The notes under the pieces: generated by a model
Database searches by the model: none
The model's input: only the letters and a program-made list of their open reading frames with translations
Told to the model about the DNA's origin: nothing
Assembly: GCF_900103805.1 (NCBI RefSeq)
Contig: NZ_FNIB01000010.1
Coordinates: 1 to 64,000 of the forward strand
From: Cryobacterium flavum
GTDB taxonomy: Bacteria; Actinomycetota; Actinomycetes; Actinomycetales; Microbacteriaceae
Reading direction: 5' to 3'
Length of the DNA: 64,000 nucleotides
In this document: positions 8,947-45,625 of the stretch, piece by piece
Layout: every line of letters begins with the position of its first letter
Numbering within the stretch: the first letter of the stretch is position 1
Position numbers and translations under genes: made by a program

Positions 8947-8950
8947 CCGC

Positions 8951-9808
8951 CTACGAAAACCATCGGCGTTCCTCCGGCAGACGGCCGAGGGCGATCATCA
9001 CTCGGTAGGCGATGACAGACAGGGCCAGGCCGCTCGCGATCACCACAATGCCAGCCGGCGAGTTGTAGGCGATGGCGGCTTCGGGGCGGGAGGCGAGCAG
9101 AACCAGAATGATCCACGGAGCTGCGACGCCGAGGCGGGCCGCATTGACCACCCACGACTGGCGGGCTTCCACCTCGAGCCGCACCGCGGCATCCTGCCTG
9201 AGCCAGGCGGCAAGGCTGCGCAGCACGAGGGTGAGGTCGCTTCCGCCGACCTCTCGCGCCATCCGCAGGGTTTCCAGAATGCGATCGGCGACCGGGTCGG
9301 CGAGGGAACGTTTGAGCTCGTCAACGCAGTACGTGAAATTGCCGGTGGCGCGGTATTCACGCTCGAACTGCGCGAACGCGGTGCGCGTCGCCGGCGGTCC
9401 GGCCTGGGCGAGGCTGCTCACGCTGTCGGGCAACGCCAGCCCGGAGCGCAGAGCCGACACCAGATGGTCGACGACGTCGGGCCACACCGTGCGGTTGGCG
9501 CGACGCCTGGCCGCCGCCCGCCACGACACGATCAGCCACGGCAGCAGCAGCCCGACCAGCCCGGCGACCGCGCTGAGCGCGAGAACAGCGAAGATTCCGT
9601 GCACCAGGGCAGCGGATGCCACCCCCGCGATCGCAGACAGCGCCAGGAACGCCGGCACCGGCACCGACCGCAGGCCGCCCTGAACCAGGCGCACCCGCAT
9701 CCGCTCCCCCACTCCGGCACGTTTGGGCGTGGATCCGGCCGGCCAGAGGAACGGGGCGAGAACGAGCACGAGACCGCTACCCAGCAGGCACCCCAGTACG
9801 AGAGTCAT
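8951..9808 (-). CDS. tadB: Tad pilus inner-membrane platform protein TadB
   Basis: This 285-aa type II secretion F-domain protein has hydrophobic helices near the N-terminus, around residues 55-95 and in two segments near the C-terminus. The cytoplasmic part contains WPDVVDHLVSALRSG and EREVGGSD-like segments (REVGGSDLTLVLRSLA) typical of TadB. With TadC it forms the membrane platform of the Flp/Tad pilus assembly machine. It overlaps the upstream tadA by four bases and is followed closely by tadC, so the three form one operon. It appears intact. Confidence 0.85.
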   Translation of the reverse strand: MTLVLGCLLGSGLVLVLAPFLWPAGSTPKRAGVGERMRVRLVQGGLRSVPVPAFLALSAIAGVASAALVHGIFAVLALSAVAGLVGLLLPWLIVSWRAAARRRANRTVWPDVVDHLVSALRSGLALPDSVSSLAQAGPPATRTAFAQFEREYRATGNFTYCVDELKRSLADPVADRILETLRMAREVGGSDLTLVLRSLAAWLRQDAAVRLEVEARQSWVVNAARLGVAAPWIILVLLASRPEAAIAYNSPAGIVVIASGLALSVIAYRVMIALGRLPEERRWFS

Positions 9809-26681: not shown

Positions 26682-28064
26682 TCATTCTACCAGAGCCTGG
26701 CCTCGTTTCTCAGGGAGTCCGAAGGTGCCGAGCGCGGCAACCACGAAGAACCCCGCGAAAACTGCAAAAAGCAGCCCCGTCCCGCCGGCCTCGCGCAGTA
26801 GGGGCACGGCCAGTGGTGCAAGGATGGCGGCAATGCGGCCATTGCCGGCCGCCCACCCCGCGCCAGTAGCCCGAATGCGAGTGGGATAAACCTCCGGTGT
26901 CACCGCGTAAAGTGCTCCCCACGCTCCGAGGTTGAAGAACGAGAGCAACATGCCCGCTGCGATCACTTGGCTGCTATCCGTTGCGATGCCAAACAGGGCA
27001 GCCGAACTGGCGGAGCCGATCAGGAAGACAGCGAGGGTGCTACGTCGGCCCCACCGTTCGATCAGATACGCCGATGCGGCATAGCCCGGAAGCTGCGCCA
27101 CGGTGATGATCAACGTATACGCGAAGGAACGCACCAGCGAGAAGCCGGAGGCGACCAGCACGGTAGGCAACCAGATGAAAGCACCGTAATAGGAGAAGTT
27201 CACGCAGAACCAGACCAACCACGGGGCGGCCGTGCGGCCACGCAGGCTCGGCGACCACAGCGCGGCGAAGCCCCCTGTGGAATCTTTTCGTTCGACTCCG
27301 CCCTGAACGGCCGGGTCCGATTCTGGGGGTGGAACCGTTACTTTGGCCGAGAGTTCGAATCGGCGAACGGTCGACTCTGCCTTTACAAACCGCCCACGCG
27401 ACTCGAGAAAACGAACCGACTCCGGAAGTCGCAGGCGCACGAACACGGCGTAGAGTGCCGGGGCCGCACCGACAGCCAAGGCCCAGCGCCATCCGTTCTC
27501 TGATGACGGCACGACGAGAAATCCGATCACGGCCGCTAGGGTCCAGCCAATCGCCCAGAACGATTCCAGCAGCACGATGATGCGACCGCGAATCCGTGGC
27601 GGCGCGAACTCGCTAACGAGGGTCGAGGCGACCGGAAGCTCGGCTCCCAGGCCGAGCCCCACGAGGAATCGCCAGGCGATCAGCACGGCCACCGATCCGG
27701 AAAGAGCGGATGCTCCCGTCGCCACGCCGTAAACGAGGAGGGTCAGCGCAAATACCTGGCGGCGTCCGATGCGGTCGGCCAATAGTCCACCGAGAACGGC
27801 GCCCACTGCCATGCCGACGAAACCGGCGGACGCGATCCAGGATAATTCCATGCCGGTCGTGTTCCATTGCACCGCTAATTGGGCCAGCACGAAGGAGATG
27901 AGCCCCACATCCATGGCATCCAACGCCCAGCCCAGGCCGGAGCCGACCAGAAGACGTCGATGTTCCCGCGTAAACGGCAGGGCATCCAATCGGGCGGTAC
28001 GCGTCAATCGTGCCGGGACGTTCACGGGCACTGCTCGATTGACATTTGCGGGAACTTCGGCCAC
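26682..28064 (-). CDS. MFS transporter, metabolite:H+ symporter (NiaP/sugar-porter-like)
   Basis: This 460-aa protein has twelve hydrophobic segments. The N-terminus LGWALDAMDVGLISFVLAQL and the loop GGLLADRIGRRQVFALTLL place it among MFS symporters for organic acids, nicotinate or sugars. LVGLGLGAELPVASTLVSEF is the usual TM4-5 motif. The substrate is not predictable. The GTG start at 28064 lacks a strong ribosome site. It follows the SUF operon in the same direction, but 54 bases separate it from the ygfZ-like gene, so co-transcription is possible. Confidence 0.82.
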   Translation of the reverse strand: MAEVPANVNRAVPVNVPARLTRTARLDALPFTREHRRLLVGSGLGWALDAMDVGLISFVLAQLAVQWNTTGMELSWIASAGFVGMAVGAVLGGLLADRIGRRQVFALTLLVYGVATGASALSGSVAVLIAWRFLVGLGLGAELPVASTLVSEFAPPRIRGRIIVLLESFWAIGWTLAAVIGFLVVPSSENGWRWALAVGAAPALYAVFVRLRLPESVRFLESRGRFVKAESTVRRFELSAKVTVPPPESDPAVQGGVERKDSTGGFAALWSPSLRGRTAAPWLVWFCVNFSYYGAFIWLPTVLVASGFSLVRSFAYTLIITVAQLPGYAASAYLIERWGRRSTLAVFLIGSASSAALFGIATDSSQVIAAGMLLSFFNLGAWGALYAVTPEVYPTRIRATGAGWAAGNGRIAAILAPLAVPLLREAGGTGLLFAVFAGFFVVAALGTFGLPEKRGQALVE

Positions 28065-28118: not shown

Positions 28119-29309
28119 TTACCGTGGCACCGAGCCCCGGCGCGGCAGCCGAGAAACGGTTACTGTGGCTGCGGCGCCCGCGTCTGGCGGGACGATCACG
28201 ACTTGCCTGGCCGGAATATCGCAGCCGGCCGTTCGCACCAAAAGTTCGGCCGTTGGATCGGTGCCGCGTTTGATGACCGCGAGCGCGACCGTACCTAATT
28301 CAAAATGCCGGGCGACCGAAGTCACCCGCCCGACGATCTGGTCCGCACCGTCTTTGTTCGGTGCCACAACTTCGTCGCCGCGCGAGGGCCGCACACTGTG
28401 TTTATCAACACTGTGCGCATCTTCCGGGTAGAGCATCACGAGCCGGCGCGGGGGATGCCCGATGTTGTGCACCTTGGCCACCGTCTGCTGGCCGCGATAA
28501 CCGCCCTTGTTCAGGTGCACGGCTGTGCGCAACCAATCAAGTTCATGGGGAATCGTCTTTTCATCAACCTCCGAGGAAAAATGCGGCCGCCAGGCTGCTA
28601 TGCGCAAGGCCTCGAGGGCGTCCAGTCCAGCGACAGGAATATCGGAGGCGACGATCCCCGCCAGGGCGCTTCGCGGCACCAATACCTCGCTGTAGGTCCA
28701 GCCCGCCGCCGGATGCCTGGTCGCCTTCGCGTACTGAAATCCACCCGGGCCAACGCTCATCCACCGGTCCCGCCAGACCACGGGAAGCCCATGAGGGGCC
28801 GTCACCGGAAGCGTCGGCTGGCCGAGGGTGCCGATGGTCGCGAATTCGATGGAACGATCCAGCAGTTCTACCCGCAGCGCGAATTGCATGCTGCCCAACC
28901 ATGTGAGCAGCCCTGCTACTTCGTTTCGCTCCAGCAGCAGCCACAGATCGGTTCCGTCATCAAACAGGCGCACCGCATAGTCGATCCGCCCGGTCATATT
29001 GAGTAGAAGGGTCTCCGAGGATTCGCCCGGCGCCAAACCGGCGACACTCTGGCTGGTCAATGAATTTATCCAGCTGAGGCGATCTGGACCGCTGATGGTA
29101 ATCACGGCCCGGTGTGAGAGGTCCACGATCGCGGTTCCTGCAGCCAGTGCGCGCTGCTCGGCGAGCGGGTCCCCATAGTGGGCGGCCACTCCGGCATCGA
29201 CCGCCTGGTCGGCACCGACCGCGCCGGGCCGGTTCAGAAATTCGTTGAACACGACCGGCGCGTTCCCGACGGAGATCTGCGGAGCGAGCATTCCCTGCGT
29301 TGAATTCAT
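28119..29309 (-). CDS. ygfZ: folate-binding YgfZ/CAF17-like Fe-S assembly protein, altered signature
   Basis: This 396-aa protein of the aminomethyltransferase-like YgfZ family helps mature Fe-S enzymes. ATG 29309 follows GGAG. The domain shows WINSLTSQSV and LLLNMTGRIDYAVRL near the N-terminus. The diagnostic family motif K-G-C-Y-x-G-Q-E appears here as KGGYRGQQTVAKVHNIG, so the conserved Cys is Gly and the Glu is Gln. That change could alter or abolish the redox- or folate-linked role. It is the last gene of the SUF operon, 46 bases after sufT. Confidence 0.85.
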   Translation of the reverse strand: MNSTQGMLAPQISVGNAPVVFNEFLNRPGAVGADQAVDAGVAAHYGDPLAEQRALAAGTAIVDLSHRAVITISGPDRLSWINSLTSQSVAGLAPGESSETLLLNMTGRIDYAVRLFDDGTDLWLLLERNEVAGLLTWLGSMQFALRVELLDRSIEFATIGTLGQPTLPVTAPHGLPVVWRDRWMSVGPGGFQYAKATRHPAAGWTYSEVLVPRSALAGIVASDIPVAGLDALEALRIAAWRPHFSSEVDEKTIPHELDWLRTAVHLNKGGYRGQQTVAKVHNIGHPPRRLVMLYPEDAHSVDKHSVRPSRGDEVVAPNKDGADQIVGRVTSVARHFELGTVALAVIKRGTDPTAELLVRTAGCDIPARQVVIVPPDAGAAATVTVSRLPRRGSVPR

Positions 29310-29355
29310 CTGTCTCCATTGGGCGCCATCAACTGCCCGATATTGTCGTGCCTGG

Positions 29356-29907
29356 TTAGTACATTCCGAGTTGGAGCCGAGCGGCTTCCGACATCCTGTC
29401 CTGGCCCCACGGTGGGTCCCAAACCAGTTCGATATCGATCTCGCCGACGCCCGGAACCGCCTGAATTGCGGTGCGGGCATCCTCTTTGAGCACATCGCCC
29501 ATGCCGCAGCCCGGAGCGGTCATTGACATGTTGACTTCGACCCGGTGGGTGCCATCGGGCAGCGGCTCCGCCTGGCACAGATAGATCAGACCCAGATCGA
29601 CAACATTGATCGGAATTTCCGGGTCGAACACGTTCTTGAGCGCATCGAGCACCTGGTCCAGGTCAAACGGACCGTCATTCATATTCACGGTTTCGGCGAC
29701 CGGTCGGCTCAGACCGAGCGCGGCCGAGTCTTCGGCACTGATCCGAACGAGGTAGCCCATTGCGGTTTGGACGGTGACGCTCGCACCGAGGGTTTGCGTT
29801 ATGACAACCTGCTCGCCGGCCTGAAGCAGCATCGGCTGCCCGCCCGGAATCACCGTCGCCTGGCAGCTGTGTTCGAGTTCGACGATCTTGTATTGGCCTG
29901 AGTCCAT
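29356..29907 (-). CDS. sufT: Fe-S cluster assembly protein SufT (MIP18/DUF59 family)
   Basis: This 183-aa protein has an N-terminal half (to about residue 80) that is specific to SufT, and a C-terminal DUF59 domain with NVFDPEIPINVVDLGLIY and MTAPGCGMGDVL. It contains the conserved Cys that members use in cluster maturation. It ends WDPPWGQDRMSEAARLQLG, as in typical homologues. It lies three bases after sufU, so they are co-translated. Confidence 0.92.
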   Translation of the reverse strand: MDSGQYKIVELEHSCQATVIPGGQPMLLQAGEQVVITQTLGASVTVQTAMGYLVRISAEDSAALGLSRPVAETVNMNDGPFDLDQVLDALKNVFDPEIPINVVDLGLIYLCQAEPLPDGTHRVEVNMSMTAPGCGMGDVLKEDARTAIQAVPGVGEIDIELVWDPPWGQDRMSEAARLQLGMY

Positions 29908-29910
29908 CGG

Positions 29911-30411
29911 CTACTTCTCCGTCCCGACGACACGGCTGCCGTCCGCGCGGTCGTCACCTTCCAGCGCATTGCGCAACGCCTGCCAAGCCAGGGAGGCGCA
30001 CTTGACCCGGGTCGGGTACTCCCATACGCCAGAGAGCACCGCGAGCTTGCCCACCTCGGCCAATGCCGCTTCCCCCTCGGATTCGCTGGTGAGCATGGTG
30101 TGCACGCGAGCGAACAGCGTCAGGGCTTCCTCCTCGGCCAGACCCTTGACGGCCATGGTCATCATGGAAGCGGATGCCTGGGAAATAGTGCATCCGCTCC
30201 CCGTGAAGGCAACGTCGGTGATGACGCCGTCGGTGAGTTGAATGGCGAGAGTCAACTGATCGCCGCATAGCGGGTTAACGGCCTCGATCGAGCACGTCGC
30301 ACGGTCGATTGTGCGAAAATTCCGTGGCCGGCGGCCATGGTCGATGATCATTTCCTGGTAAAGACCCGCGATTCCCGCACTGACCGAAGCGATCCCTGGG
30401 CCGGCCGTCAT
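29911..30411 (-). CDS. sufU: Fe-S scaffold/sulfur acceptor SufU
   Basis: This 166-aa NifU-like protein has the three conserved cysteines in NPLCGDQLTL, GSGCTISQAS and VKCASLAW, which bind zinc and accept sulfur from SufS. LYQEMIIDHGRRPRNF is the usual N-terminus. ATG 30411 overlaps the sufD stop by four bases (ATGA). The C-terminal tail DRADGSRVVGTEK is unstructured. Confidence 0.93.
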   Translation of the reverse strand: MTAGPGIASVSAGIAGLYQEMIIDHGRRPRNFRTIDRATCSIEAVNPLCGDQLTLAIQLTDGVITDVAFTGSGCTISQASASMMTMAVKGLAEEEALTLFARVHTMLTSESEGEAALAEVGKLAVLSGVWEYPTRVKCASLAWQALRNALEGDDRADGSRVVGTEK

Positions 30412-31733
30412 GGAGCGACCACAGTGGCGTCACTCCCGAACCGGGTGGCGACCACGCGTTCCAACTGGGCGCGCAGTGGATCCAACTCGATCCGGTCCAC
30501 CATTTCGTGTACAAACGCGTAGATGAGCAGGCCCCTGGCCGCTTCCAGCGGGATGGCACGCGTCTGAAGGTACAGCAGAGCCTCCTCATCCATTTGGCCC
30601 ACCGCAGCACCGTGCGTGCACTTCACATCATCGGTATAGATTTCCAGCCGGGGCCTGGTGTCGACTTCGGCGCGGTCGGAGAGCAGTAAGTTCTTGTTCT
30701 TCTGGTTCGCATCGGTACCGTCAGCGCCATGACGAACCATAATGTGGCCGTTGAACACACCGTGTGCCCGGCCGTCCAACACTCCCTTATACAGCTGGTG
30801 GCTGGTGCAGTCCGTCGCGGCGTGATCGACGAAGATCGTGTTGTCGTGGAGTTGATCGCCCTGGGGCAGGTAGACGCCGTCGAGGCTGACCTCGGCGCCG
30901 ACGCCATCCAGTTGAACTCGCACCTCGTGCCGGGCGATGCTGGCGCCGAGCATGATGGAACGGGAAGAGAATCGGCTGCCCCGCCCTTGCCGCACGGACA
31001 GCAGCGCCACATGGAAAGCACTCGTCGGCTCGTTTTGCACCTTGTAGTGCTCAATGTGGGCGTCTTCGGCGAGGAGGAGTTCGGTGACGGCGTTGGTGCA
31101 ATACACGTCGGAATCGACCCCGGCGTAGGTCTCGACGATCGTGGCACGAGAGTGCGAATCGGCGATTATCACCGAACGTGGACTGAATATCAGCGGGACT
31201 CCACCGGTGTCGGAGAAGTAGACCAGCTGAATCGGCTCGTCCACGATGGTGCCGCTGGGAAGATGAATGAATGCGCCATCCTCGGCCAGAGCGTCATTGA
31301 ATGCTGCGAAGGCGTGACGCACTCCCGGTGCATGCGCGAAAAAGGGTTCGAGGCGGTCAGGCCCGGCTGCCAGCACCGCGGCCAGGGTCGTGACGACCGC
31401 ACCGGCCGGCACCCCGGTCACTCGCGAGAATTCGGACGAGAAATGGCCGTTGACGAAGACCAACCGTGGACCACCGAGATCGACCGCAGCCTCGTCGATC
31501 ATTTCTGCCGTCACCCGGATGCCAGATGCCACCGTGGCGGCATCGAACGGTACGGCGAGGATCGGGGCCAACCCGGTGTATTTCCAGTCCTCATCCTTGT
31601 GGGTCGGGAAGCCGTGCTCACCCACCCACTGGAGGGCGGCTACCCGCGCCTCGGCGAGCCAGGCGGGATCACGCGCGCCGAGCCGAGGTTCGAAGCCAGC
31701 GAGCACTCCGCTGGCCGCGCTCAGAACGGTCAT
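30408..31733 (-). CDS. sufD: Fe-S cluster assembly protein SufD
   Basis: This 441-aa beta-helix partner of SufB in the SufBCD scaffold has GFPTHKDEDWKYTGL near the N-terminus and the C-terminal core CTHGAAVGQMDEEALLYLQTRAIP with GLLIYAFVHEMVDRI. It overlaps both sufC (four bases) and sufU. SufD lacks its own cluster but is needed for iron entry. The protein appears intact. Confidence 0.93.
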   Translation of the reverse strand: MTVLSAASGVLAGFEPRLGARDPAWLAEARVAALQWVGEHGFPTHKDEDWKYTGLAPILAVPFDAATVASGIRVTAEMIDEAAVDLGGPRLVFVNGHFSSEFSRVTGVPAGAVVTTLAAVLAAGPDRLEPFFAHAPGVRHAFAAFNDALAEDGAFIHLPSGTIVDEPIQLVYFSDTGGVPLIFSPRSVIIADSHSRATIVETYAGVDSDVYCTNAVTELLLAEDAHIEHYKVQNEPTSAFHVALLSVRQGRGSRFSSRSIMLGASIARHEVRVQLDGVGAEVSLDGVYLPQGDQLHDNTIFVDHAATDCTSHQLYKGVLDGRAHGVFNGHIMVRHGADGTDANQKNKNLLLSDRAEVDTRPRLEIYTDDVKCTHGAAVGQMDEEALLYLQTRAIPLEAARGLLIYAFVHEMVDRIELDPLRAQLERVVATRFGSDATVVAP

Positions 31734-32506
31734 CGCGATATCCCGGCCGTGCTCAATCGACCTGCGTCAGCTTCCTGGGTACCGGTGTAGCCGTGCGCTT
31801 CGAGCTCGACGGCCAGGTCCTTGCCCCCGGAACGCACGATCCGGCCGGCGGTCATCACGTGCACCTGGTCGGGCACGATGTAGTCCAGAAGGCGCTGGTG
31901 GTGCGTGATGACGAGCATGCTGCGGCCTTCGCTCCGGAGGGCGTTCACCCCGCTGGCGACCACCCTTAGAGCGTCGATGTCCAAACCGGAGTCGGTCTCA
32001 TCCAAAATCGCGAGTTTGGGTTCCAGGATCGCCATTTGCAGGATCTCGTTGCGTTTCTTTTCACCGCCGGAAAATCCCTCGTTGACCGAGCGATTCATGA
32101 AGGTCTGGTCCATCTCAACGAGCTTCATCTTCTCCTGAGCCAGCGCCAGAAAGTCCACCGGATCCAGTTCTTCTTCTCCACGCTGGCGGCGCAGGGAGTT
32201 CAAGGCGGTGCGCATGAAGTACATGTTTCCGACGCCGGGAATCTCGACCGGATGTTGGAAGGCCAGGAATACACCGGCGGCAGCGCGCTCTTCCGGTGAC
32301 AAGGTCAGCAGGTCCTGACCCTCATACGTGACGCTGCCAGAGACCTGGTACCCCTCGCGGCCGATCAATACACTGGCCAAGGTGCTTTTTCCCGAACCGT
32401 TCGGGCCCATGATCGCGTGCACCTCACCCGGTTTCAGTTGCAGATTCACCCCTCGCAATATTTCTTTGTCCTCGATACTGGCGTGCAGTTCTTCGATTTT
32501 CAGCAT
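31730..32506 (-). CDS. sufC: Fe-S assembly ATPase SufC
   Basis: This 258-aa ABC-type ATPase powers the SufBCD complex. Walker A is GPNGSGKST, the signature FSGGEKKRNEILQMA, Walker B LAILDETDSGLDIDAL and the H-loop VITHHQR. ETDSGLDID is the form characteristic of SufC. Its ATG shares one base with the sufB stop (TAATG), a typical coupling arrangement. Confidence 0.95.
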   Translation of the reverse strand: MLKIEELHASIEDKEILRGVNLQLKPGEVHAIMGPNGSGKSTLASVLIGREGYQVSGSVTYEGQDLLTLSPEERAAAGVFLAFQHPVEIPGVGNMYFMRTALNSLRRQRGEEELDPVDFLALAQEKMKLVEMDQTFMNRSVNEGFSGGEKKRNEILQMAILEPKLAILDETDSGLDIDALRVVASGVNALRSEGRSMLVITHHQRLLDYIVPDQVHVMTAGRIVRSGGKDLAVELEAHGYTGTQEADAGRLSTAGISR

Positions 32507-33969
32507 TAGCCAACGCTTCCTTCCAGGCTTACGGTTAACAGTTTTTGCGCCTCAACGGCGAATTCCATGGGCAGCATCTTGAATACTTCACGGCAGAAAC
32601 CGTTCACAATCATCGACACCGCCTCTTCTTCCGGGATACCCCTCTGCCGGCAATACAGGAGTTGTTCCTCGCCGATTTTGGAGGTCGATGCCTCGTGCTC
32701 AACCTGCCCGGTCTGGTTCTTCACCTCGATGTACGGAAGCGTGTGTGCACCGCTGTCCTTGCCGATCAACAGCGAATCGCACTGGGTGAAGTTGCGGGCT
32801 CCGACGGCCGAATGTCGCATGTCCACCAGACCGCGGTAGGTGTTCTGCCCGTGACCGGCTGAAATAGCCTTCGAGATGATGGTGCTCTTGGTGTTCTTGC
32901 CGATGTGCACCATCTTGCTGCCGGTATCCGCTTGCTGACGTCTGGCCGTCAATGCCACCGAGTAGAACTCGCCGACCGAGTTGTTACCCTTAAGAACCAC
33001 GCCGGGGTACTTCCAGGTGATCGAGGAGCCGGTTTCCACCTGGGTCCAGGAAATCTTTGCATTGCGGCCGGAAGCCATACCCCGTTTGGTGACGAAGTTG
33101 TACACGCCGCCGTTGCCGTCGGCATCTCCGGGATACCAGTTCTGCACCGTCGAGTACTTGATCTGGGCATCGTCCAGTGCCACCAGCTCAACCACGGCGG
33201 CGTGCAGCTGGTTCGTGTCACGAACGGGTGCCGTGCAGCCCTCGAGGTAGCTGACATAAGCGCCCTCTTCGGCGATGATCAGGGTTCGCTCGAACTGGCC
33301 GGTGTCGGCGGCGTTGATGCGGAAGTAGGTGGACAGCTCCATCGGGCAGCGCACGCCCTTAGGGATGTAACAGAACGAACCGTCGGTGAACACCGCAGCG
33401 TTCAGGCAGGCGAAGAAGTTGTCGTTGTACGGAACCACGGAGCCGAGGTACTGACGCACCAGATCCGGATGCTCCTGAACGGCTTCCGAGAAGGAGCAGA
33501 AGATCACTCCAACCTCGGCCAACTTGTCTTTGAACGTCGTGGCAACCGAGACCGAATCGACGATCGCGTCGACCGCCACGCCGCTGAGACGCTCCTGCTC
33601 ACCGAGCGAAATGCCGAGCTTGTCGAACATCTCCCGCAGCTCCGGGTCGACCTCGTCCATGCTCTCCACGCGTTTTTTCGGCTTGGGAGCGGCGTAGTAA
33701 ATGATGTCCTGGTAGTCGACCGGCCCATAGGTGACGTGCTGCCAGGTCGGTGCCGTGAGCGTGGTCCAGTTCCGGTAGGCACGGAGCCGCCATTCCAACA
33801 GCCAATCCGGCTCATTTTTCTTGCTCGAAATCAGTCGGATGATGTCTTCGTTCAGCCCGCGGGGTGCGACGTCAGTTTCGAGATCGGTCACAAATCCATA
33901 CTGGTATTCCTGGTTCGCTAATGCGCGGACCTCGTCAGAGATACCAGTCGAGGTTGTGGGTGCACTCAT
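32506..33969 (-). CDS. sufB: Fe-S cluster assembly protein SufB
   Basis: This 487-aa scaffold protein shows [18 protein letters not shown] at the start, FSLGEQ-like [16 protein letters not shown], and [22 protein letters not shown] (Cys-containing core). The C-terminus [20 protein letters not shown] closes the beta-helix. Clusters are built at the SufB-SufD interface. A 50-base gap separates it from the ferredoxin gene upstream, the largest gap in this operon before the ygfZ boundary. Confidence 0.95.
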
Positions 33970-34019: not shown

Positions 34020-36456
<2,437 letters not shown>

Positions 36457-36474
<18 letters not shown>

Positions 36475-36494
36475 GACATAAGCATGTCCTAATT
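36457..36494 (-). promoter_or_regulatory. conserved 38-bp promoter/operator element, copy 1 (before sufR)
   Basis: This 38-bp stretch recurs at 43272-43309 with 36 identical positions. It contains ACATG-N7-CATGT (a perfect spaced inverted repeat) inside TTA...TAA ends, suiting a dimeric repressor such as SufR. On the minus strand a possible promoter is TTAGGA, 16 bases, TAATAG. Both the inverted repeat and the hexamers are kept in the two copies. Binding by SufR is inferred from position alone. Confidence 0.6.
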
Positions 36495-36591
36495 CAGCTC
36501 GGCTGGCAAGTCAACGCGCCGGTCCACCGTCTGGCAGCAACTAGAGTCGAGCAGGCGGTGGGGTCGTTACCCTCGAGTCAAAGGAGAACGC

Positions 36592-36954
36592 GTGCTTTTT
36601 CGCCAACTGGAATATTTTGTCGCTGTCGCACGGGAACGACACTTCGCGCACGCGGCTGCGGCCTGTCACGTTTCCCAGCCCGCCCTTTCCGCGGGAATCA
36701 GCAAGCTGGAGCAGGAACTCAATGTCTCACTGATCAACCGTGGTCATGCTTTTGAGGGGTTGACGCCGGAGGGCGAACTCGTGGTGATGCGGGCCAAACG
36801 GATTGTGGCGGAGCGTGACACGCTCAAGGCGGAGGTTCACGCTCTCAAATCCGGCGTGACCGGCGTACTGCGTCTTGGCGTCGTGCCCAGCGCATCGACA
36901 ACGGTCGCGCTACCGGTTGCGGCGTTCTGTGCCGCGCATCCGCTGGGCGCGACA
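36592..36954 (+). pseudogene. LysR-family regulator, truncated after the DNA-binding domain
   Basis: The first 121 or so residues are a good LysR N-terminus: FRQLEYFVAVARERHFAHAA, VSQPALSAGISKLEQEL, and a linker to GVTGVLRLGVVPSASTTVAL. After AAFCAAHPLG the similarity stops, and the frame runs on out of phase through the formate dehydrogenase remnant to 37113. The effector domain is lost. It may once have controlled the formate dehydrogenase gene beside it. Confidence 0.75.
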
Positions 36955-36986
36955 CCTGCCAAACCGGCGTCACAGAAAAAGGCCAC

Positions 36987-37877
36987 ATGGCCAAGATTCT
37001 TCTCGTCCTCTACCCAGATTCCGTCACCGGGTACCCGCCGCAGTGCGCACGCGACAGCATCCCTGTACTTGATAACTACCCAGAACGGGAGCTCGCGAGC
37101 GCTGACATCGTGATTTCCCAACCATTCTAGCCGGCCTATTTGACCGCAGAAAGGATCGCGAAGGCGCCAAAATTGAAGCTCGCGATCACGGCCGGCATCG
37201 GTTCGGATCACGTTGATCTCGACGCAACAATCAGCCACGGCATCACCGTGGTCGAAGAGACCTATAGCAACAGCATCAGTGTCGCCGAGCACGCTGTTAT
37301 GCAAGTCCTCGCTCTCGTTCGCAACTACCTCCCCTCGCACGAAGGGGTCGTCAATGGTGGCTGGAACATAGCCGACAGCGTCGAGCGCGCCTATGACATC
37401 GAGGGAATGAACGTCGGTGTCATCGCGGCCGGCCGCATCGGTCGTGCCGTTCTGCGCCGACTCGCACCCTTTGATGTTCACCTGCACTACACCGACAAGA
37501 ACAGGCTGTCCCCCGAAATCGAGCGCGAACTTGCGCTGACCGTCCACCCGGATGCGGCCTCGCTCGTGCGGGCCGTCGACGTGGTATCGATCCATGCACC
37601 GCTGCATCCACAGACGCATCACCTCTTCGACGACGCCCTGATCTCATCAATGAAACGAGGCTCGTACATCGTGAACACGGCCCGAGCCGAGATCGCTGAC
37701 CGCGACGCGATCGTTCGCGCGTTGGAGTCCGCGCAAATCGCCGGATATGCCGGCGACGTCTGGTATCCGTAGCCGCCAGCGGCCGACCACCCCTGGCGCA
37801 CGATGCCGCACAACGGCATGACCCGCCACGTGTTTGGGTCGACTCTGTCCGCTCAGACAGCGAGAGCACCGATGTAG
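36987..37877 (+). pseudogene. fdh: NAD-dependent formate dehydrogenase, decayed
   Basis: From ATG 36987 the frame reads AKILLVLYPDSVTGYPPQ, then jumps over an internal deletion to ERELASADIVISQPF. A TAG at 37128 replaces an expected Trp, and similarity continues through LKLAITAGIGSDHVDLDA, NSISVAEHAVM, VRNYLPSHEG and VGVIAAGRIGRAVLRRL to YAGDVWYP. A second TAG at 37770 replaces an expected Gln, and HPWRTMPHNGMT follows. The C-terminal 40-60 residues are gone. Two nonsense codons, one internal deletion and a lost tail make it a clear pseudogene of the D-2-hydroxyacid-dehydrogenase-type formate dehydrogenase. Confidence 0.88.
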
Positions 37878-37942
37878 TACTGGGGAACGCCGCGGTGACT
37901 GCGGTGGGATTCCAATCCGCTGGTTTGGAACTGCTGCCCGGG

Positions 37943-38173
37943 TCAGAGCGTGGTCAGCACCTGCTCACGCACCTGTTTGCGCAGGATCTTGCCGAGCAGG
38001 CGCGCGGGGTTGCATCCACCGGTGATAGTGAGTGCCTTAGCGCGGTCGACGATCGTGGGGAAGCCGTCCTCGTCGACGGTCGCGACGTCCCCGGTCACGA
38101 CGCCAGCCGCCCGGGAACAGCGTGGTTCTCTCCCAGGTCGTGGCACGCGTTCCAACCAGTGCCGCGGTCGCAA
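37943..38173 (-). pseudogene. remnant of an AMP-dependent acyl-CoA synthetase
   Basis: On the minus strand VTGDVATVDEDGFPTIVDR followed by AKALTITGG is the C-terminal hinge region of acyl-CoA synthetases/ligases. It is joined almost at once to GKILRKQVREQ, which resembles the very C-terminus (normally some 60 or more residues later), so an internal deletion has occurred. Nothing else of the enzyme is left. Together with the neighbouring pseudogenes it fills the region up to 38214. Confidence 0.65.
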
Positions 38174-38214
38174 ACACGTGCCGCGAGCGCCGGGTCACCG
38201 CAGAAACGCCGGTT

Positions 38215-39744
38215 TTACCGGTGGGCGGCGAGCAGCTCGCGGGTGAACGGATGCTGCGGCGCCGCAAAGAGATCGACCGCCGGCCCCTGCTCCACAACAA
38301 CGCCCTCCTTCATCACGAGGATCTCGTGGCTCAGTGCCCGGACCACGGCGAGGTCGTGCGAGATGAACACCATGGCGAGTCCGGTGGATTCCTGGAGAGA
38401 GGCCAGCAGCGCGAGCACCTGGGATTGAACCTGCGCGTCGAGCGCCGAGACCGGCTCGTCGCACACCAGGATGCTCGGCCGCCGTGCGAGCGCCCTGGCG
38501 ATCGCCACGCGCTGCCGCTGCCCGCCGGAGAGCTCGTGCGCGCGCCGGCCAAGCAGCCCTGTCGCCAGCGCCACCTGCGCGAGCAATTCCACCGCCCGAG
38601 CCGTGCGCCACCGGCGTGGAATCCCGTCGAGAGCGATAGCCTCCAACAGAATCTGCAGCACCGTCGACCGCGGGTCAAAGGCGCTCAGCGAGTCCTGGTG
38701 GATGATCTGGAGACATCCCCGCCGGGCCCGGCGCTGGGATTCCGGCAGGCCGCTCCAGGGCTCGCCGTGCAGCAGCACCGAACCGTGGTCGGGCGACTGC
38801 GTGCCCAGCAGCATCCGTGCCACGGTGCTCTTTCCCGAGCCTGACTCGCCCACGATGCCCACGGTGTGGCCGGCTCGCAGTTCGAACGAGACCCCGTCGA
38901 CGGCCGTCAGCGTTCCGTATGCCTTGGCGAGGTCGTGTGCGGCGAGCACCACGGGGCGCAGCTTCGGCGCCGTGGCCGTGCCCAGCGCGGCAGCGGCCAG
39001 CAACTGACGAGTATACGGATGCTGCGGCGCGGCAAACAGGGCGTCCGCGGCCTGCACTTCCACGAATCGGCCGTCCTTCATGACCGCCACCTGGTCGGCC
39101 AGCTGGCAGATGATCGACAGGTCATGGCTGATCAGCAACAGGGCGAGGCCAGATTCCTTCAGCTCACGCAGCAGTCGCACGACCTGCGCCTGCACCGTCG
39201 CGTCGAGAGCTGTCGTGGGTTCGTCGGCGATCAGCAGCGACGGCGATGCCGCCAGTGCCGCGGCGATAAGCGCGCGCTGGCGCAGCCCGCCGGAGAGCTC
39301 GTGCGGGTACTGCCGGGCACGCCGGGCCGGATCGGGCATGGCCACCTGCCGGAGCAGCTGCAGCACGCGGCGAGAACGGTCGACACGGCCGAGCTGCGGT
39401 TCGTGCACCTCGAGCGGTTCGGCCACCTCGGCGCCCACTCGGCGCAGCGGGTCGAGAGAGACCAGAGCGTCCTGGCTCACGAGCCCGACCCGCGCCCCGC
39501 GGAGGCCCCGCCAGCCTTGAGGGGAGAGGGCGCGGGCGTCGACGCCGGCCACCGTCAGTTCGTCAGCGGTGACCCCGGTGCCGGCGAGCCCGATCAGGCT
39601 ACGCGCGGTCAGGGTCTTACCGGCACCGGACTCCCCCACGATGCCGAGGCACTGCCCAGCCTCGATGCGAAACGACACCCCATCGACCACGGCGGCCCCG
39701 CCCGGCACGACGACGCGCAGGTTGCGCACACTCACGACGCTCAT
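38215..39744 (-). CDS. peptide/nickel-type ABC transporter, two fused ATP-binding domains
   Basis: This 509-aa protein has two ABC domains in tandem, like fused DppD and DppF: Walker A GESGAGKT (first) and GESGSGKST (second), with signatures LSGGLRQRALIAAAL and LSGGQRQRVAIARAL and Walker B LLIADEPTTALD and LVCDEPVSALD. The start is ATG 39744, overlapping the permease stop by four bases. It would energise uptake of oligopeptides, nickel complexes or siderophore-like compounds through the two adjacent permeases. It is the last gene of the operon. Confidence 0.9.
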   Translation of the reverse strand: MSVVSVRNLRVVVPGGAAVVDGVSFRIEAGQCLGIVGESGAGKTLTARSLIGLAGTGVTADELTVAGVDARALSPQGWRGLRGARVGLVSQDALVSLDPLRRVGAEVAEPLEVHEPQLGRVDRSRRVLQLLRQVAMPDPARRARQYPHELSGGLRQRALIAAALAASPSLLIADEPTTALDATVQAQVVRLLRELKESGLALLLISHDLSIICQLADQVAVMKDGRFVEVQAADALFAAPQHPYTRQLLAAAALGTATAPKLRPVVLAAHDLAKAYGTLTAVDGVSFELRAGHTVGIVGESGSGKSTVARMLLGTQSPDHGSVLLHGEPWSGLPESQRRARRGCLQIIHQDSLSAFDPRSTVLQILLEAIALDGIPRRWRTARAVELLAQVALATGLLGRRAHELSGGQRQRVAIARALARRPSILVCDEPVSALDAQVQSQVLALLASLQESTGLAMVFISHDLAVVRALSHEILVMKEGVVVEQGPAVDLFAAPQHPFTRELLAAHR

Positions 39745-40601
39745 CGTTGCCGCCCCGCCGCGCTGGCCTGCAGGTGCCGTCCGAGAACGCTCGTCGAGAC
39801 CACGGTCGCGGTGATCACGATTCCAGGGAACACAGCGATCCACCAGGCTGTAGCGAGAAAGTTGCGTCCCTCGGAGAGAATGAGCCCCCACTCCGGTATG
39901 GGCGGCTTCGGTCCGAGGCCGAGAAAACTGAGGCCGGCGGCGGCCGTGATGGCCGTGCCGATTCCCATCGTGGCCATCACGAGCAACGGCCCGAGCGTGT
40001 TCGGCACCACGTGCCGCAGCACGGTGACCGCCGGCGACACCCCGAGTGTGCGGGCGGCCTCCACGTAGCCGGCCCGCTTCACCACCAGGGTCTGTACCCG
40101 GGCGACGCGGGCATACGACGGAATCACCGCGATGGCGACCGCGATCAGCAGACTCGCCTCCCCCGGCCCGATGATCGCTATCACGATCAGCGCTAGCAGA
40201 AATTCCGGAAACGCCATCACGATCTCGATCGCCCGGCTCAATACACCGTCGCCGACCCGGCGCATCAGCCCGGCCAGAGAGCCGATCACCAGGCCCGCCA
40301 GGAGGGCAATCAGGGTAGCCCCGAAGCCGATCGCGAGCGAGTAGCGCGAGCCATAGATGACACGTGCGAACACGTCGCGGCCGGCCTGGTCGGTTCCAAA
40401 CGGATGCCCAGGGCCGGGCGCCAGCAGCGCAGCATCGATGTCCGTGCGCACGGCATCAGCCCCGGTGAACAACCGAGGAAACAACGCGGACAGCAAGAGG
40501 AGCAGTAGGAAGCCGGCGGCCACCCAGAGGGCCGGTGTGGGCATCCGGGTCACGCGTCGGGTGCGGGCGGTTCGGGAGCGCGCGGCGGCGAGAATGCTCA
40601 C
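39741..40601 (-). CDS. peptide/nickel-type ABC transporter permease (DppC-like)
   Basis: This 286-aa permease has six or so helices, an N-terminal membrane segment, GTDQAGRDVFARVIYGSRYSL (DppC/OppC signature), and the EAA loop EAARTLGVSPAVTVLRHVVP. GTG 40601 overlaps the previous permease stop by four bases. It forms the channel with the DppB-like protein. Confidence 0.9.
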   Translation of the reverse strand: MSILAAARSRTARTRRVTRMPTPALWVAAGFLLLLLLSALFPRLFTGADAVRTDIDAALLAPGPGHPFGTDQAGRDVFARVIYGSRYSLAIGFGATLIALLAGLVIGSLAGLMRRVGDGVLSRAIEIVMAFPEFLLALIVIAIIGPGEASLLIAVAIAVIPSYARVARVQTLVVKRAGYVEAARTLGVSPAVTVLRHVVPNTLGPLLVMATMGIGTAITAAAGLSFLGLGPKPPIPEWGLILSEGRNFLATAWWIAVFPGIVITATVVSTSVLGRHLQASAAGRQR

Positions 40602-41566
40602 GCGTAGGCCTGCTCGGTCGCCAGGCGCGGGTCGAGACGGTCGGCCACGAAGTCGACCAGCAGGTTGACCAACGAGAACGACACTGCGGCGAGCACAATA
40701 ATGCCCAGCACCACAGGCACATCCCGATTGACGATGGCGTTCAGGGCCACGCGTCCGAGTCCGGGACGGGCGAAGACGGTCTCTACCAGCACCGAACCGC
40801 CGAGCAAGGAACCGACGATGTAACCCGTGAGGGTGACGCTGTTCGCTGCGGCGTGGCGCAGGGTATGCCGCAGCACGAGGCGGGTCTGGCTCGCTCCACG
40901 GGCGCGCACGGTGTCGACGAAGGGCAGAGCGGCCGCGTCGTCGAGGCCCTGGCGCAACACCTGGCTGAGAATGCCGGCCACCGGAATGGCGAGGGTCACG
41001 GCGGGCAGCACGAGCGCGCCGAACCCGGCGGTGGCGACCACGGGGAACCAACCCAGTCCGAAGCCGAAAACACCAATCAGCACCAGGCCGATCCAAAACG
41101 TGGGCGAGGACACCGCCACGAGCTCGAGCAGGCCAGCCACCGGGCCGGTGCGCCTGCCGCGGCCGAGCAGCGCCGACCCGAACGCGAGCAGCACGGCGAA
41201 CGAGATGGCGAGGCCCATCAGTTGCATCGTCGGCGCGAGTTGCTGGCCGATCACCGCGGCGACGGGTTGCTGCATGCGATACGACGTGCCGAGGTCACCC
41301 TGCAGCAGGCGGCCGAGGTAGTGGAAATACTGCAGGAGAAGCGGGTCGACGAGGCCCCAGTCTGCTCGGATCTGGTCGCGCACTCGCTGCGACACGTTGC
41401 CGAGCCCCACGAGCACGTTCACCGGGTCGCCGGGGATCAACCGCAGCGAGAAGAAGCCCACGGTGGCGGCGCCCCACACCACGAGGATCATGCCGCCGAA
41501 CCGGCCGGCCAGGCGGGCGCCCGGTCGGCCGGATCGACGCGCACGGCCCTCGCGGTGCGCGGTCAC
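40598..41566 (-). CDS. peptide/nickel-type ABC transporter permease (DppB-like)
   Basis: This 322-aa permease shows RLIPGDPVNVLVG near the N-terminus, the DppB-type LGTSYRMQQPVAAVI, and the EAA loop TVRARGASQTRLVLRHTLRHA. The GTG start at 41566 overlaps the binding-protein stop, so the four genes are coupled throughout. The long region upstream of this GTG is not part of the protein. Confidence 0.9.
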   Translation of the reverse strand: MTAHREGRARRSGRPGARLAGRFGGMILVVWGAATVGFFSLRLIPGDPVNVLVGLGNVSQRVRDQIRADWGLVDPLLLQYFHYLGRLLQGDLGTSYRMQQPVAAVIGQQLAPTMQLMGLAISFAVLLAFGSALLGRGRRTGPVAGLLELVAVSSPTFWIGLVLIGVFGFGLGWFPVVATAGFGALVLPAVTLAIPVAGILSQVLRQGLDDAAALPFVDTVRARGASQTRLVLRHTLRHAAANSVTLTGYIVGSLLGGSVLVETVFARPGLGRVALNAIVNRDVPVVLGIIVLAAVSFSLVNLLVDFVADRLDPRLATEQAYA

Positions 41567-43215
41567 GGCGCGGTCGTGAGGGACGCCTCGTAGAAGAGCG
41601 GCTGCCCGTACAGATCGAAGCTCAGGTTCTCGATGGTCTTGATGTAGGCGGTGATGGCGGTGGGTACCGTGATCGGCACCATGACCACATGGGTCGCGTT
41701 CCACTGCTGCAGCTGCTGGTAGAGCGCTTCGCGTTCGGTCGGATCGCTCGTGGCGATGGCGTCGTCGAGCAGCTGGTCGACGACCGGGTCGGCCGTAGAC
41801 GAGCCGTTTTTATAGCCGCCGCTGTGCAGGTGGGCGCGCAGGACGTCGGCGTCGACGCTGGGGAAACTCCAGTCGGACAGGTCATAGTCGCGTGCGTCGA
41901 AGGCCTCGTAGTATTGGGCGATCTCACGGTTGTCGCGCACGATTTCGAACCCGATGTCGCGCAGGTCAGACTGCACCACGTCGCCGAGGCTTGCGTTGGC
42001 GTCGGAGACCGGGGTGTAGGCGAGCCACTGGGCGCTCAGTCGGGCTCCACCTTTGGTGCGGTAGCCCTCGGAGTCGCGCTCGGTCCAGCCGGACGCATCA
42101 AGCAGCGCATTGGCCTGGTCTGGGTCGAACGCCCAGCTGTCTTCGAGGCTCGGGTCGTAGGAGTTGGGCGTGGCCGGGGAGAGGATGCTCCAGGCGCGCT
42201 CCGCTTGTCCCTGGTAGATGGTCTCGACGGCCGGACCGATGTCGACCCCGAGCGCGAAGGCACGGCGCACGTTCTCGTCGGCGAAGACGCCGTGCGCCTC
42301 GTTCAGGAACAGGGTGTACGGCAGGCCAGGCATCGTCACGTTCTGGATGGAGAAGTCGTCGCCGATCTGGCTGACTGTGTTCGGAGTGATGTCGCTGGCG
42401 ATCTGCGCCTGGCCGCTCGTGAGGGCGCCCGTGCGCACCGAGGATTCGGGAAGGATGCGGAACTCGAGCGTGTCGATGGCGGGCGCGCCCTGATGGGAGC
42501 TGCCCTCCGGCGCCCAGTCGTAGTTTTCATTTGCGGTGAAGACGATGCTCTGGTCTGGCGTATATTCGCTCAGCACGTAAGGTCCGGTTCCCACCGAATT
42601 GCCCGGTCCACCGGCCGAAAGCTGCGCCGCGTTGTCCCGCAGAGTGGCCGGCGAGTAGAAGCCAAGCTTGGCGGTGCTCACCGCCTGCAGGAATGGCGCG
42701 TACGGCTGGCTGAAGTTCACCCGAACGGTGAATTCGTCGATGACCTCGGTGCCAGCGTAGAAGCCGCCGGTTTCGGCGTACCCGATCAGACTGGCAGCAT
42801 CCGCTGACGCCGTCTCTGGGGCGACGACGTGCTCGAAATTAGCCTTGACGGCCTCGGCGTTGAAGGGTTCGCCGTCGTGGAACGTGACCTCGCCCCGCAG
42901 ATCGAACGTGTAGTGCAGGCCGTCGTCCGAGATCTGCCAGGACGTGGCGAGCCATGGCACGAACGAGCCGTCGGCTTTCTCATAGACGAGGGAGTCGAAG
43001 GAGTTGCGCATCACCAGGGCGGTGGCCTGGAACGCCGACGAGTGGATGTCCATCTTGCCGCCGCTGAGCGTGCCGCCGTTGATGGCGTAGGTCAGCGTGT
43101 TCGCGTTGGCGGGGGCACTCGGGGAGGTGGCAGCGCATCCGGAAACCAGAGCGATGGCGGCAATGACGGCGGCGGCGGCGCGAAGTCGGGATGTTGAATG
43201 TGCGCGAGTGCGCAT
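41563..43215 (-). CDS. peptide/nickel-type ABC transporter substrate-binding lipoprotein
   Basis: This 550-aa SBP_bac_5 family protein has a lipoprotein signal peptide with lipobox LVSGC (Cys27). The mature part includes TWQISDDG-like SWQISDDGLHYTFDLRGEVT and TFHDGEPFNAEAVKANFE, typical of DppA/NikA/OppA proteins. The ligand may be a peptide, a nickel or iron chelate or another small molecule. The first gene of a four-gene operon, it sits 57 bases after the second copy of the 38-bp element, which links its expression to Fe-S status by inference. Confidence 0.9.
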   Translation of the reverse strand: MRTRAHSTSRLRAAAAVIAAIALVSGCAATSPSAPANANTLTYAINGGTLSGGKMDIHSSAFQATALVMRNSFDSLVYEKADGSFVPWLATSWQISDDGLHYTFDLRGEVTFHDGEPFNAEAVKANFEHVVAPETASADAASLIGYAETGGFYAGTEVIDEFTVRVNFSQPYAPFLQAVSTAKLGFYSPATLRDNAAQLSAGGPGNSVGTGPYVLSEYTPDQSIVFTANENYDWAPEGSSHQGAPAIDTLEFRILPESSVRTGALTSGQAQIASDITPNTVSQIGDDFSIQNVTMPGLPYTLFLNEAHGVFADENVRRAFALGVDIGPAVETIYQGQAERAWSILSPATPNSYDPSLEDSWAFDPDQANALLDASGWTERDSEGYRTKGGARLSAQWLAYTPVSDANASLGDVVQSDLRDIGFEIVRDNREIAQYYEAFDARDYDLSDWSFPSVDADVLRAHLHSGGYKNGSSTADPVVDQLLDDAIATSDPTEREALYQQLQQWNATHVVMVPITVPTAITAYIKTIENLSFDLYGQPLFYEASLTTAP

Positions 43216-43271
43216 AGGTGGGGTCTCTTCTCAGATACTGGTCGAACGGTGACGCATGTTGACTCCGCCTA

Positions 43272-43309
43272 GCGGTGGGCTATTAACATGACGTAAGCAT
43301 GTCCTAATT
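43272..43309 (-). promoter_or_regulatory. conserved 38-bp promoter/operator element, copy 2 (before the ABC importer)
   Basis: This copy is identical to copy 1 (36457-36494) at 36 of 38 positions. The differences are one base outside the palindrome and one inside the 7-base spacer. ACATG-N7-CATGT, TTAGGA and TAATAG are all kept. On the minus strand it retains the first codons of sufR (ATG TTA ATA GCC CAC CGC) and then a TAG, so it could encode a six-codon leader peptide. It lies 57 bases before the lipoprotein start and 34 bases from the mevalonate cluster stop. Confidence 0.65.
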
Positions 43310-43342
43310 TAACAACGACAGCAAATGACCGTCACCAACTAT

Positions 43343-45625
43343 CTACCGAATCTCGGTCAGGTAGGTGGTGTAACCGGCCCCGCGCAAGGCGGCACGGATC
43401 GGTTCGGCGCCAGCGGACCCAGCCACGGCGATCATCGCGCCGCCTCCGCCTCCGCCGGTCAGCTTGGCACCGAGGGCACCGGCCCGGCGGGCGATGGCGA
43501 CCATCTGCTCGAGCTCGGGACTCGAGACTTGCAGGGCATTGAGCAGGCCCTGGTTGATGTTCATCAGCTCGCCCAGTTCGACAGTGTCGCCTCGGCGCAG
43601 GGCGTCGGCCCCCTCCCCGACCAGGGAGTCGATCTGATCGAAGATCGCATCGTAACGCGCGGGGCGCTGCTGCCACGCCGCGCGCACGGCGGCCACGGTG
43701 TGCGAGGTCAGGGCGTGCATACCGGTGAGACCGATCACGATCGGAATCGGATTCGGTGTGACGATGTCGCGGATTTCGTGACCACTCGGAGCATCCGTTT
43801 TTTGAAAAAGAATCGGCCGACCGAACGTGGCAACGGTGTTGTCGATGCCGGACGGTGTGCCGTGCACGATCTTTTCGCACTCAAATGCCAGACTCGACAC
43901 TTGCTCGTCGCTGAGCCGAATGGAGAAGCACTCGGCGGTCGCCCGGATGAGAGCGACGGCGAACGCGGCCGACGCCCCTAGACCGCTCGCTCGCGGCAGC
44001 TCAGAAAACACGTCGACCCGAACGCCGGATTGCGGCAAACCCAGACGTGCGGCGATCAACGTGGCGACCCGGTGTGAGACGTCGGCGCTGATCGGTTCCT
44101 GCACCGAACCATCCGCGTCCCAGTCGGTGATGATCGGCGCCTGCCCAGGCGTACCGCGCCCGACCTCGGCGCGCACCGTGAGGCCGATGGGCGCGGCGAT
44201 GGCCCGCCGACCGTACACCACGGAGTGTTCCCCGAGCAGGATGATCTTGCCGTAACCGACGTGCCCGGCCGCACCCTGCGGTGCACGCGTGGGGGGCATG
44301 GCTGTTACTACGGCGGCGGGGGCGCTGGCGGCCAGCGGCGGGGCTTCAAGGTCTGCCAGAATTTGCCGCGCCTTCCACACCTTGATCTCGCCGCCGACGA
44401 CGAGCTGCTCCACAACCTCATCGAAGCGCGCCGGGCTGGTGCCGGCGGCCACCGCGACCGCCCGGGCGTGCAAGCGCATGTGCCCGTGTTGGATTCCCGT
44501 GGTGGAGAGCGCTTTGAGCGCGGCCAGGTTTTGGGCCAGCCCCGCCGCCGCCATGACCTCGGCCAGTTCGCGCGCCGACCCGATTCTCAGGATGCTGTGG
44601 GCGATTCGCACGGCCGGGTTTGATTCCACCTGCCCGCCGACCGTACCCACCTTGAGCGGCATCGTCAGCTCGCCGACCAGGTCACCAGCCGAGTTCGCCC
44701 GCCAGGTCGACAACGGCGCGTAGTGCTCACCGCGAGCGGCATAGGCGTGGGCGGCCGCTTCGATGGCTCGCCAGTCGTTGCCGGTCGCGATCGCGACGGC
44801 GTCGATGCCGTTCATGATGCCCTTGTTGTGGGTGGTAGCCCGGTAGGGATCCAGCTCGGCGAATTCGGCAGCCAGAATGATGCCGTCACGAACGCGGTCA
44901 CCGGAGTACTCCCCGGTGGCCAGCGCTACCTGCGGGATGACCGCGCGGGCACGCACGAGGGCACGATCAGTCAGGTTCGAGAGAATGCGCAGGAACACCC
45001 GCCCCGTGCTGATTCGCTCGACCAGGGGCGCAATGCTCTCGCACATTGAGTTGACGAGATTCGCCCCCATCGCATCGCGGGTGTCGACCAGCAGGTGCAC
45101 GACCAGCAGCTCACCGTTCTGCGCCGTCGCTCCCCGCAAATACACCTCGACACCGCGCGCGCCGCCGCCGCGGGCGACCATCTTCGCGTGGCCGCTGTTG
45201 GCGAGCCGCAGAATTTGTTCCGTCTGCGCGAGCAGAGCTAGACGCGCCAACGCCGGGTCGGCGACGTCAACGACCTGCACCTGGCCGATTAGTAGCGGCT
45301 CATCGGCCGTGCTGGTAAAACCGCCGTTTTGGCGCACCAGAAGCGCGGTGGAACTGACCGCCGCCACGATGGACGGTTCCTCCACCACCATGGGAATCAG
45401 GTAGTCGCGACCGTTGATCTGAAAATTGAGCCCGAGCCCCATCGGCAGGGAAAACACGCCGATCACGTTTTCGGTCAGTCGGTCAGCGGTTTCGGCGTCG
45501 AGCAGCCCGGTACCCGGCTGCAACATGGCATAGTCGGCATCGTTCAACGTGCCGCGTTTGTGCAACAAATCCAGTCGTTTCTGCACCGACAGCTGATAGA
45601 ACTTCGCGATGCGGGAGCCGGTCAT
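43343..45625 (-). CDS. fused HMG-CoA reductase (class II) and mevalonate kinase
   Basis: This 760-aa protein has two catalytic domains. Residues 1 to about 420 are class II HMG-CoA reductase: ENVIGVFSLPMGLGLNFQ (catalytic Glu), THNKGIMNGIDAVA (Lys), TGNDWRAIE (Asp) and HMRLHARAVAVAAG (His). After an Ala/Pro-rich linker, residues 443-760 are a GHMP-family mevalonate kinase: GKIILLGEHSVVYG, LPRASGLGASAAFAVAL, GTPSGIDNTVATFG and AKLTGGGGGGAMIAV. It thus makes mevalonate and phosphorylates it in one polypeptide. The ATG at 45625 overlaps the phosphomevalonate kinase stop by four bases. I see no stop, frame change or internal promoter between the domains. M443 could in principle start a separate kinase. 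Confidence 0.9.
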   Translation of the reverse strand: MTGSRIAKFYQLSVQKRLDLLHKRGTLNDADYAMLQPGTGLLDAETADRLTENVIGVFSLPMGLGLNFQINGRDYLIPMVVEEPSIVAAVSSTALLVRQNGGFTSTADEPLLIGQVQVVDVADPALARLALLAQTEQILRLANSGHAKMVARGGGARGVEVYLRGATAQNGELLVVHLLVDTRDAMGANLVNSMCESIAPLVERISTGRVFLRILSNLTDRALVRARAVIPQVALATGEYSGDRVRDGIILAAEFAELDPYRATTHNKGIMNGIDAVAIATGNDWRAIEAAAHAYAARGEHYAPLSTWRANSAGDLVGELTMPLKVGTVGGQVESNPAVRIAHSILRIGSARELAEVMAAAGLAQNLAALKALSTTGIQHGHMRLHARAVAVAAGTSPARFDEVVEQLVVGGEIKVWKARQILADLEAPPLAASAPAAVVTAMPPTRAPQGAAGHVGYGKIILLGEHSVVYGRRAIAAPIGLTVRAEVGRGTPGQAPIITDWDADGSVQEPISADVSHRVATLIAARLGLPQSGVRVDVFSELPRASGLGASAAFAVALIRATAECFSIRLSDEQVSSLAFECEKIVHGTPSGIDNTVATFGRPILFQKTDAPSGHEIRDIVTPNPIPIVIGLTGMHALTSHTVAAVRAAWQQRPARYDAIFDQIDSLVGEGADALRRGDTVELGELMNINQGLLNALQVSSPELEQMVAIARRAGALGAKLTGGGGGGAMIAVAGSAGAEPIRAALRGAGYTTYLTEIR

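Follow-up and report, generated by a model that had tools for sequence, protein, structure and literature searches.

Analysis of a 64,000-nucleotide stretch of the genome of the cold-living bacterium Cryobacterium flavum (contig NZ_FNIB01000010.1, positions 1 to 64,000; hereafter the window) revealed a 38-bp element that occurs twice, once at the start of sufR, the gene of the iron-sulfur (Fe-S) repressor, and once in front of an importer operon. We consider it probable that both elements are SufR operators lying within promoters, so that holo-SufR would repress the importer and its induction would accompany that of the SUF genes. As the second copy is placed where it could control the importer, the arrangement is best understood as a new SufR target.

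A probable SufR operator and promoter in two copies

Direct comparison of 36,457–36,494 (copy 1) with 43,272–43,309 (copy 2), both read on the minus strand, confirmed the repeat that the original prediction had described: 36 of 38 bases are identical in direct orientation, and ACATG-N7-CATGT is contained in both. Copy 1, with its 31-base core AATTAGGACATGCTTATGTCATGTTAATAGC (minus-strand reading), spans the sufR start codon (36,474, minus strand) and codons 1 to 6. Relative to its gene, copy 2 is oriented like copy 1, and it ends 56 bp upstream of the ATG of the solute-binding protein (43,215). Within the whole genome of the strain (4.04 Mb, 42 contigs, 99.99% complete), a search for the 25-base core with up to three mismatches returned these two copies only, with no match to the reversed pattern and 2.4e-5 matches expected by base composition.

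The sufR gene itself (35,713–36,474, minus strand) heads the order sufR-S-fdx-B-C-D-U-T on one strand. Its best NCBIfam match is TIGR02702, the cyanobacterial SufR equivalog model, at 84.2 bits and thus below the cut-off of 178.8, and we therefore claim its product as an actinobacterial SufR homolog. The predicted cluster-binding cysteines of the C-terminal part, C182, C186, C199, and C227, are kept in 28, 29, 29, and 29 of 29 homologs, respectively, with the spacing of residues 171, 175, 188, and 216 in Corynebacterium glutamicum (PMC11995493).

To place the element in a wider context, sufR homologs were located in 60 related genomes. They have an upstream block in common, at or near the predicted start, of the form AATTAsGtmACAatgrTGTTGTGnAAT. 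A matrix derived solely from sequences upstream of sufR in other genera (25 regions, among which L020 and L027 are probably misplaced) scored the two copies at 21.2 and 18.5, ranking them first and second among 127,948 positions of the window; the third position reached 12.9. The T-to-C difference of copy 2 at position 17 of the 31-mer is also present in five of these 25 sites. The local form is ACATG-N7-CATGT, the order-wide form being nearer to CACA/CAAC-N-GTTG, and the arms vary jointly across sites, with ACATG/CATGT in some and ACACA/TGTGT in others. Paired changes maintain the inverted repeat at two of five positions; the covariation score is 0.371, a value that 3 of 500 shuffles attained, their mean being 0.212. 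On the grounds of these sequence comparisons, the element is very probably a SufR operator.

The SufR of Streptomyces avermitilis binds CAAC-N6-GTTG overlapping the -10 region, and transcription starts at the last G of this site (PMC11995493). This exact sequence is absent here because the arms differ, the order-wide matrix bridging both forms; the inverted repeat of copy 1 likewise overlaps the predicted -10 and the start of sufR. Applying the S. avermitilis geometry sets the -10 at CATGCT (36,481–36,486), within the operator, and the transcription start at the first base of the sufR start codon, the A at 36,474, thereby predicting a leaderless sufR transcript; the transcript of Rv1460 in Mycobacterium tuberculosis is leaderless as well (PMC6034842). 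The predicted -35, TTGCCA (36,504–36,509), lies 17 bases from the -10, and the hexamer at this spacing has T first and G third at every one of the 11 sufR loci in Cryobacterium. For copy 2, the same geometry yields a -10 of CATGCT (43,296–43,301), a possible -35 of TTGCTG (43,319–43,324) at the identical 17-base spacing, and a predicted start at 43,289 (all on the minus strand). From this retained sufR start, a six-codon leader open reading frame (ORF; 43,269–43,289, minus strand) reads MLIAHR-stop in the window and continues without the stop in Cryobacterium aureum Hh31 (G258), which is 98.3% identical to the window over 18.8 kb. The ATG of the binding protein itself lies 74 bases downstream of 43,289.

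It is very improbable that the site instead belongs to another metal or redox regulator controlling both operons, e.g., the product of the LysR-type ORF (36,592–37,113) that stands divergent from sufR. The proximity of such a gene would suit this explanation. However, the motif accompanies sufR not only within the genus but also in further families of its order, and the neighboring gene differs in other genomes, being for instance aconitase in G226. Moreover, the LysR-type ORF is short (173 aa) and has the Pfam DNA-binding domain only.

Distribution of the element in Cryobacterium

The distribution was evaluated in 57 genomes of the genus, with sufR called at E ≤1e-30 and the importer binding protein at E ≤1e-150. 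They were found in 10 and 11 genomes, respectively: seven carry both, four the importer only, three sufR only, and the other 43 neither. With relatedness left out of account, Fisher's test gives p 1.2e-4 for this co-occurrence. A pattern search allowing up to three mismatches matched nine of the 57 genomes, all of them sufR-bearing (control: 0), and none of the 47 genomes without sufR. The sufR-bearing genome G257, which this search missed, has an element closer to the order-wide form. In a draw of 199 genomes of the family, including the own genome and just three other members of the genus, no other carrier was found.

These counts bear on the element being a dispersed or mobile repeat without promoter role, an outcome that the original prediction had named as contradicting it. 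Two near-identical copies 6.8 kb apart might suggest such a repeat, but the own genome holds no further copy, the pattern is absent from the 47 sufR-less genomes, and the element occupies the orthologous position before sufR, leaving this explanation with a negligible probability. The bare ACATG-N7-CATGT, proposed at the same time for a genome scan, proved unspecific: with one mismatch allowed, it occurs at 12 places in the own genome, three of them exact, compared with 19 for the control, and was rejected as a search motif.

A short order-wide model (R1), whose first look had scored 150 of 218 candidates, was then replaced by a model for the genus (R2), to which only the sites at sufR, and not copy 2, contributed. 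At E ≤1, R2 gave 15 matches across 14 genomes, 11 at sufR and four elsewhere. It recovered the element at all 11 sufR loci of the ten sufR-bearing genomes and in none of the four importer-bearing genomes lacking sufR. All four sites away from sufR precede SUF-associated genes, namely the importer (window and C. aureum), a major facilitator superfamily (MFS) transporter, and ygfZ. For 15 genomes of other families, of which 14 had supplied sites to R1, this order-wide model found a single match, no more than ~110 bases away from sufR, in each of 13; the other two had no match. As a separate observation, G269 has two sufR loci (L100 and L101), each with its own element, which suggests either a duplicated SUF locus or the assembly of a mixed sample.

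Several observations weigh against the two elements being SufR operators within promoters and against SufR control of the importer. Consensus scans detected no sigma-70 promoter at either copy, both -35 hexamers being missed, and the -35 of copy 2 fits TTGACA at only three of six positions. Two of five covariation measures did not exceed the shuffles. R1 found neither copy in the own genome (E ≤10) and matched only four of the 13 other Cryobacterium genomes. Comparison of the window with C. aureum shows no difference in the element and four in the rest of the intergenic region, too few to demonstrate constraint. No terminator was found between the upstream mevalonate gene and the importer, so that the operon could be driven by read-through regardless. 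Nine of the 11 importer orthologs in the genus, including that of the sister species Cryobacterium levicorallinum Hh34 (G231), are without the element, the carriers being the window and C. aureum. The link between importer and SufR is thus lineage-specific, and either young or dispensable. Consequently, of the original prediction that SufR controls both operons, the SufR-type operator and promoter and the suitable placement of copy 2 stand, while control of the importer as a general feature of the SUF regulon does not.

The importer and the origin of copy 2

The importer operon on the minus strand comprises a solute-binding lipoprotein resembling NikA and TIGR04028 (41,563–43,215), two permeases (40,598–41,704 and 39,741–41,096), and a single two-domain ATPase ORF of 558 aa (38,215–39,891); the last three are longest ORFs with the true start probably downstream. 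With SBP_bac_5, two BPD_transp_1, and an ATP-binding cassette (ABC) ATPase domain at Pfam gathering scores in one operon, it belongs to the family-5 peptide/nickel-type ABC importers. The closest solved chains to the binding protein are NikA proteins, and its scores stay below the NCBIfam cut-offs (211.8 compared with 393 bits for nickel_nikA, 246 compared with 468.5 for TIGR04028). The substrate may be a metal chelate, a peptide, or a sulfur compound. A role of the importer in metal, iron, or sulfur supply, as originally proposed, is putative, its basis being a binding protein that is NikA-like but unassigned.

Upstream of the importer, six of the nine element-less orthologs (G231, G269, G221, G226, G267, and G257) share a stretch similar to GGTACGTTTGATGGGCGGAGTCA. 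Its right end (GGCGGAGTCA) persists in the window and in C. aureum immediately after the element, indicating that the element replaced the left part of an older upstream sequence. An insertion scar, i.e., a cassette flanked by duplicated target, was considered and found no support: in C. levicorallinum, the importer lies with the mevalonate genes in one stretch and sufR with the LysR-type gene in another, and only sufR has the element.

The remaining two sites away from sufR are in G272 and G213. In G272, the element provides its own GTG as the in-frame start of a 462-aa MFS transporter (L102, G272:C23:8001-28000, 5822-7230), preceded by a ferredoxin remnant and a stretch resembling the fdx-sufR intergenic region of G213; the transporter apparently came to lie at a captured operator by a deletion fusion. 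The same MFS transporter follows sufU in G257, and it also occurs downstream of the suf genes both in C. levicorallinum and in the window. In G213, the element is followed by an N-terminal remnant of sufR and then by ygfZ, with lipB-lipA divergent (L103, G213:C1:9000-27000, 8173-9603); a ygfZ-like gene belongs to the SUF cluster in the window. Importer and suf genes share a contig in five of the seven genomes with both (window, C. aureum, G269, G272, and G257), and are found on different contigs in C. levicorallinum and G226. In G269, the importer ATPase is followed by the element and sufR on the same strand, and in the relative G272, sufR-B-C-D-U is directly followed by the importer on one strand. 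This contig sharing makes it plausible that importer, MFS transporter, and ygfZ represent cargo of the SUF locus. It is likewise plausible that internal deletions in duplicated SUF loci fused the sufR promoter to whichever gene remained.

According to the mechanism we propose, a [4Fe-4S]-SufR dimer on the inverted repeat would cover the -10 and the transcription start, keeping sufR and the suf genes off. Upon cluster loss through iron shortage, oxidation, or nitric oxide, SufR would leave, and SUF would be transcribed, with sufR read from its leaderless start. In the C. aureum lineage, a piece of the sufR promoter comprising the operator, the -10, the start, and the six initial codons would have been joined to the importer operon in place of the older upstream sequence. 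The event was probably a deletion inside a duplicated copy of the SUF locus, which brought the sufR start next to the importer. With such a promoter piece at the importer, its repression by holo-SufR and joint induction with SUF would be expected, which suggests that the importer is switched on when the cell is short of Fe-S clusters.

Copy 2 might also be a fossil of a lost second sufR locus, binding SufR weakly or not at all, with the importer being read from the upstream mevalonate operon. Such a relic would agree with G213, where a comparable scrap carries an N-terminal remnant of sufR, with the lack of a detected terminator, and with the nine orthologs that do without the element. In contrast, copy 2 retains the -10, the 17-base spacing, the T-T-G beginning of the -35, and the full operator, it is intact in two genomes, and it ranks second in the window with the other-genera matrix. 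Altogether, we regard the fossil as unlikely and SufR control of the importer as the better supported explanation.

Gene neighborhood and relation to known SufR systems

Downstream of sufR, the minus strand carries sufS (34,337–35,716; above the TIGR01979 cut-off), a ferredoxin of the FdxA_Actino type (34,020–34,340; above that of NF045480), sufB (32,506–33,969), sufC (31,730–32,506), sufD (30,408–31,733), sufU (29,911–30,411), and a sufT-like gene (FeS_long_SufT, 29,356–29,907; above that of TIGR03406). They are followed by the ygfZ-like gene (28,119–29,495), which aligns with the ygfZ region of G213 at 72.9% DNA identity (1081 columns), and the MFS transporter of the cluster (26,682–28,064; PF00083), which is 64% identical to the one downstream of sufU in G257. 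The ygfZ-like ORF of the window matched no NCBIfam family at E 1e-25; the G213 ygfZ passes TIGR03317.

On the other side of sufR, the interval 36,592–37,772 holds the short LysR-type ORF (173 aa) and a formate-dehydrogenase-like ORF without its ends. As C. levicorallinum has ~700 additional bases in the equivalent interval, the window copies look truncated. Beyond the importer, a single 760-aa ORF (43,343–45,625) joins HMG-CoA (3-hydroxy-3-methylglutaryl-coenzyme A) reductase and mevalonate kinase, adjoins other mevalonate genes, and lies next to SUF; the mevalonate route is free of Fe-S enzymes, unlike the alternative route. The HMG-CoA synthase gene of C. aureum Hh31 (L099, 2544-4018) probably contains a frameshift, its match being split into two parts that lie in different frames.

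The arrangement at copy 1 resembles that of S. avermitilis, where the operator extends over the -10 up to the transcription start of sufR, the leading gene of the suf operon (PMC11995493), but the arms in Cryobacterium are ACATG/CATGT or ACACA/TGTGT, and a second copy precedes the importer. It is also reminiscent of M. tuberculosis Rv1460, the repressor encoded by the first gene of the suf operon, with a leaderless transcript and a site ~20 bp upstream of the start codon; the excerpt of that study describes no captured copy before an importer (PMC6034842). In cyanobacteria, SufR control reaches ftrC, a neighbor of the suf operon (PMC13421787); in PCC 7942 this occurs by co-transcription, whereas here a separate promoter copy and a transporter gene are involved. 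SufR is described as dedicated to the suf locus in a review (PMC8593673), and a wider sufR-dependent transcriptome was reported for M. tuberculosis (PMC10848736). Among the matches listed in a search of the SufR literature, no importer is named as a direct SufR target, and absence from print is not claimed.

Throughout the order, R1 placed a single site, at sufR, in 13 of 15 other genomes, most of which had also served for its training. If the proposed control is true, the recent second site before the importer would show how an Fe-S repressor with one target gains further ones, and would tie the importer to Fe-S cluster supply. In a more tentative extension, which we consider possible but rather doubtful, the sufR promoter would act as a portable Fe-S switch, fused repeatedly by deletion in duplicated SUF loci to the importer, the G272 MFS transporter, and the G213 ygfZ. 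A single-target regulator may in this way have become a regulator of supply, with the importer taking up an iron- or sulfur-bearing compound for cluster building.

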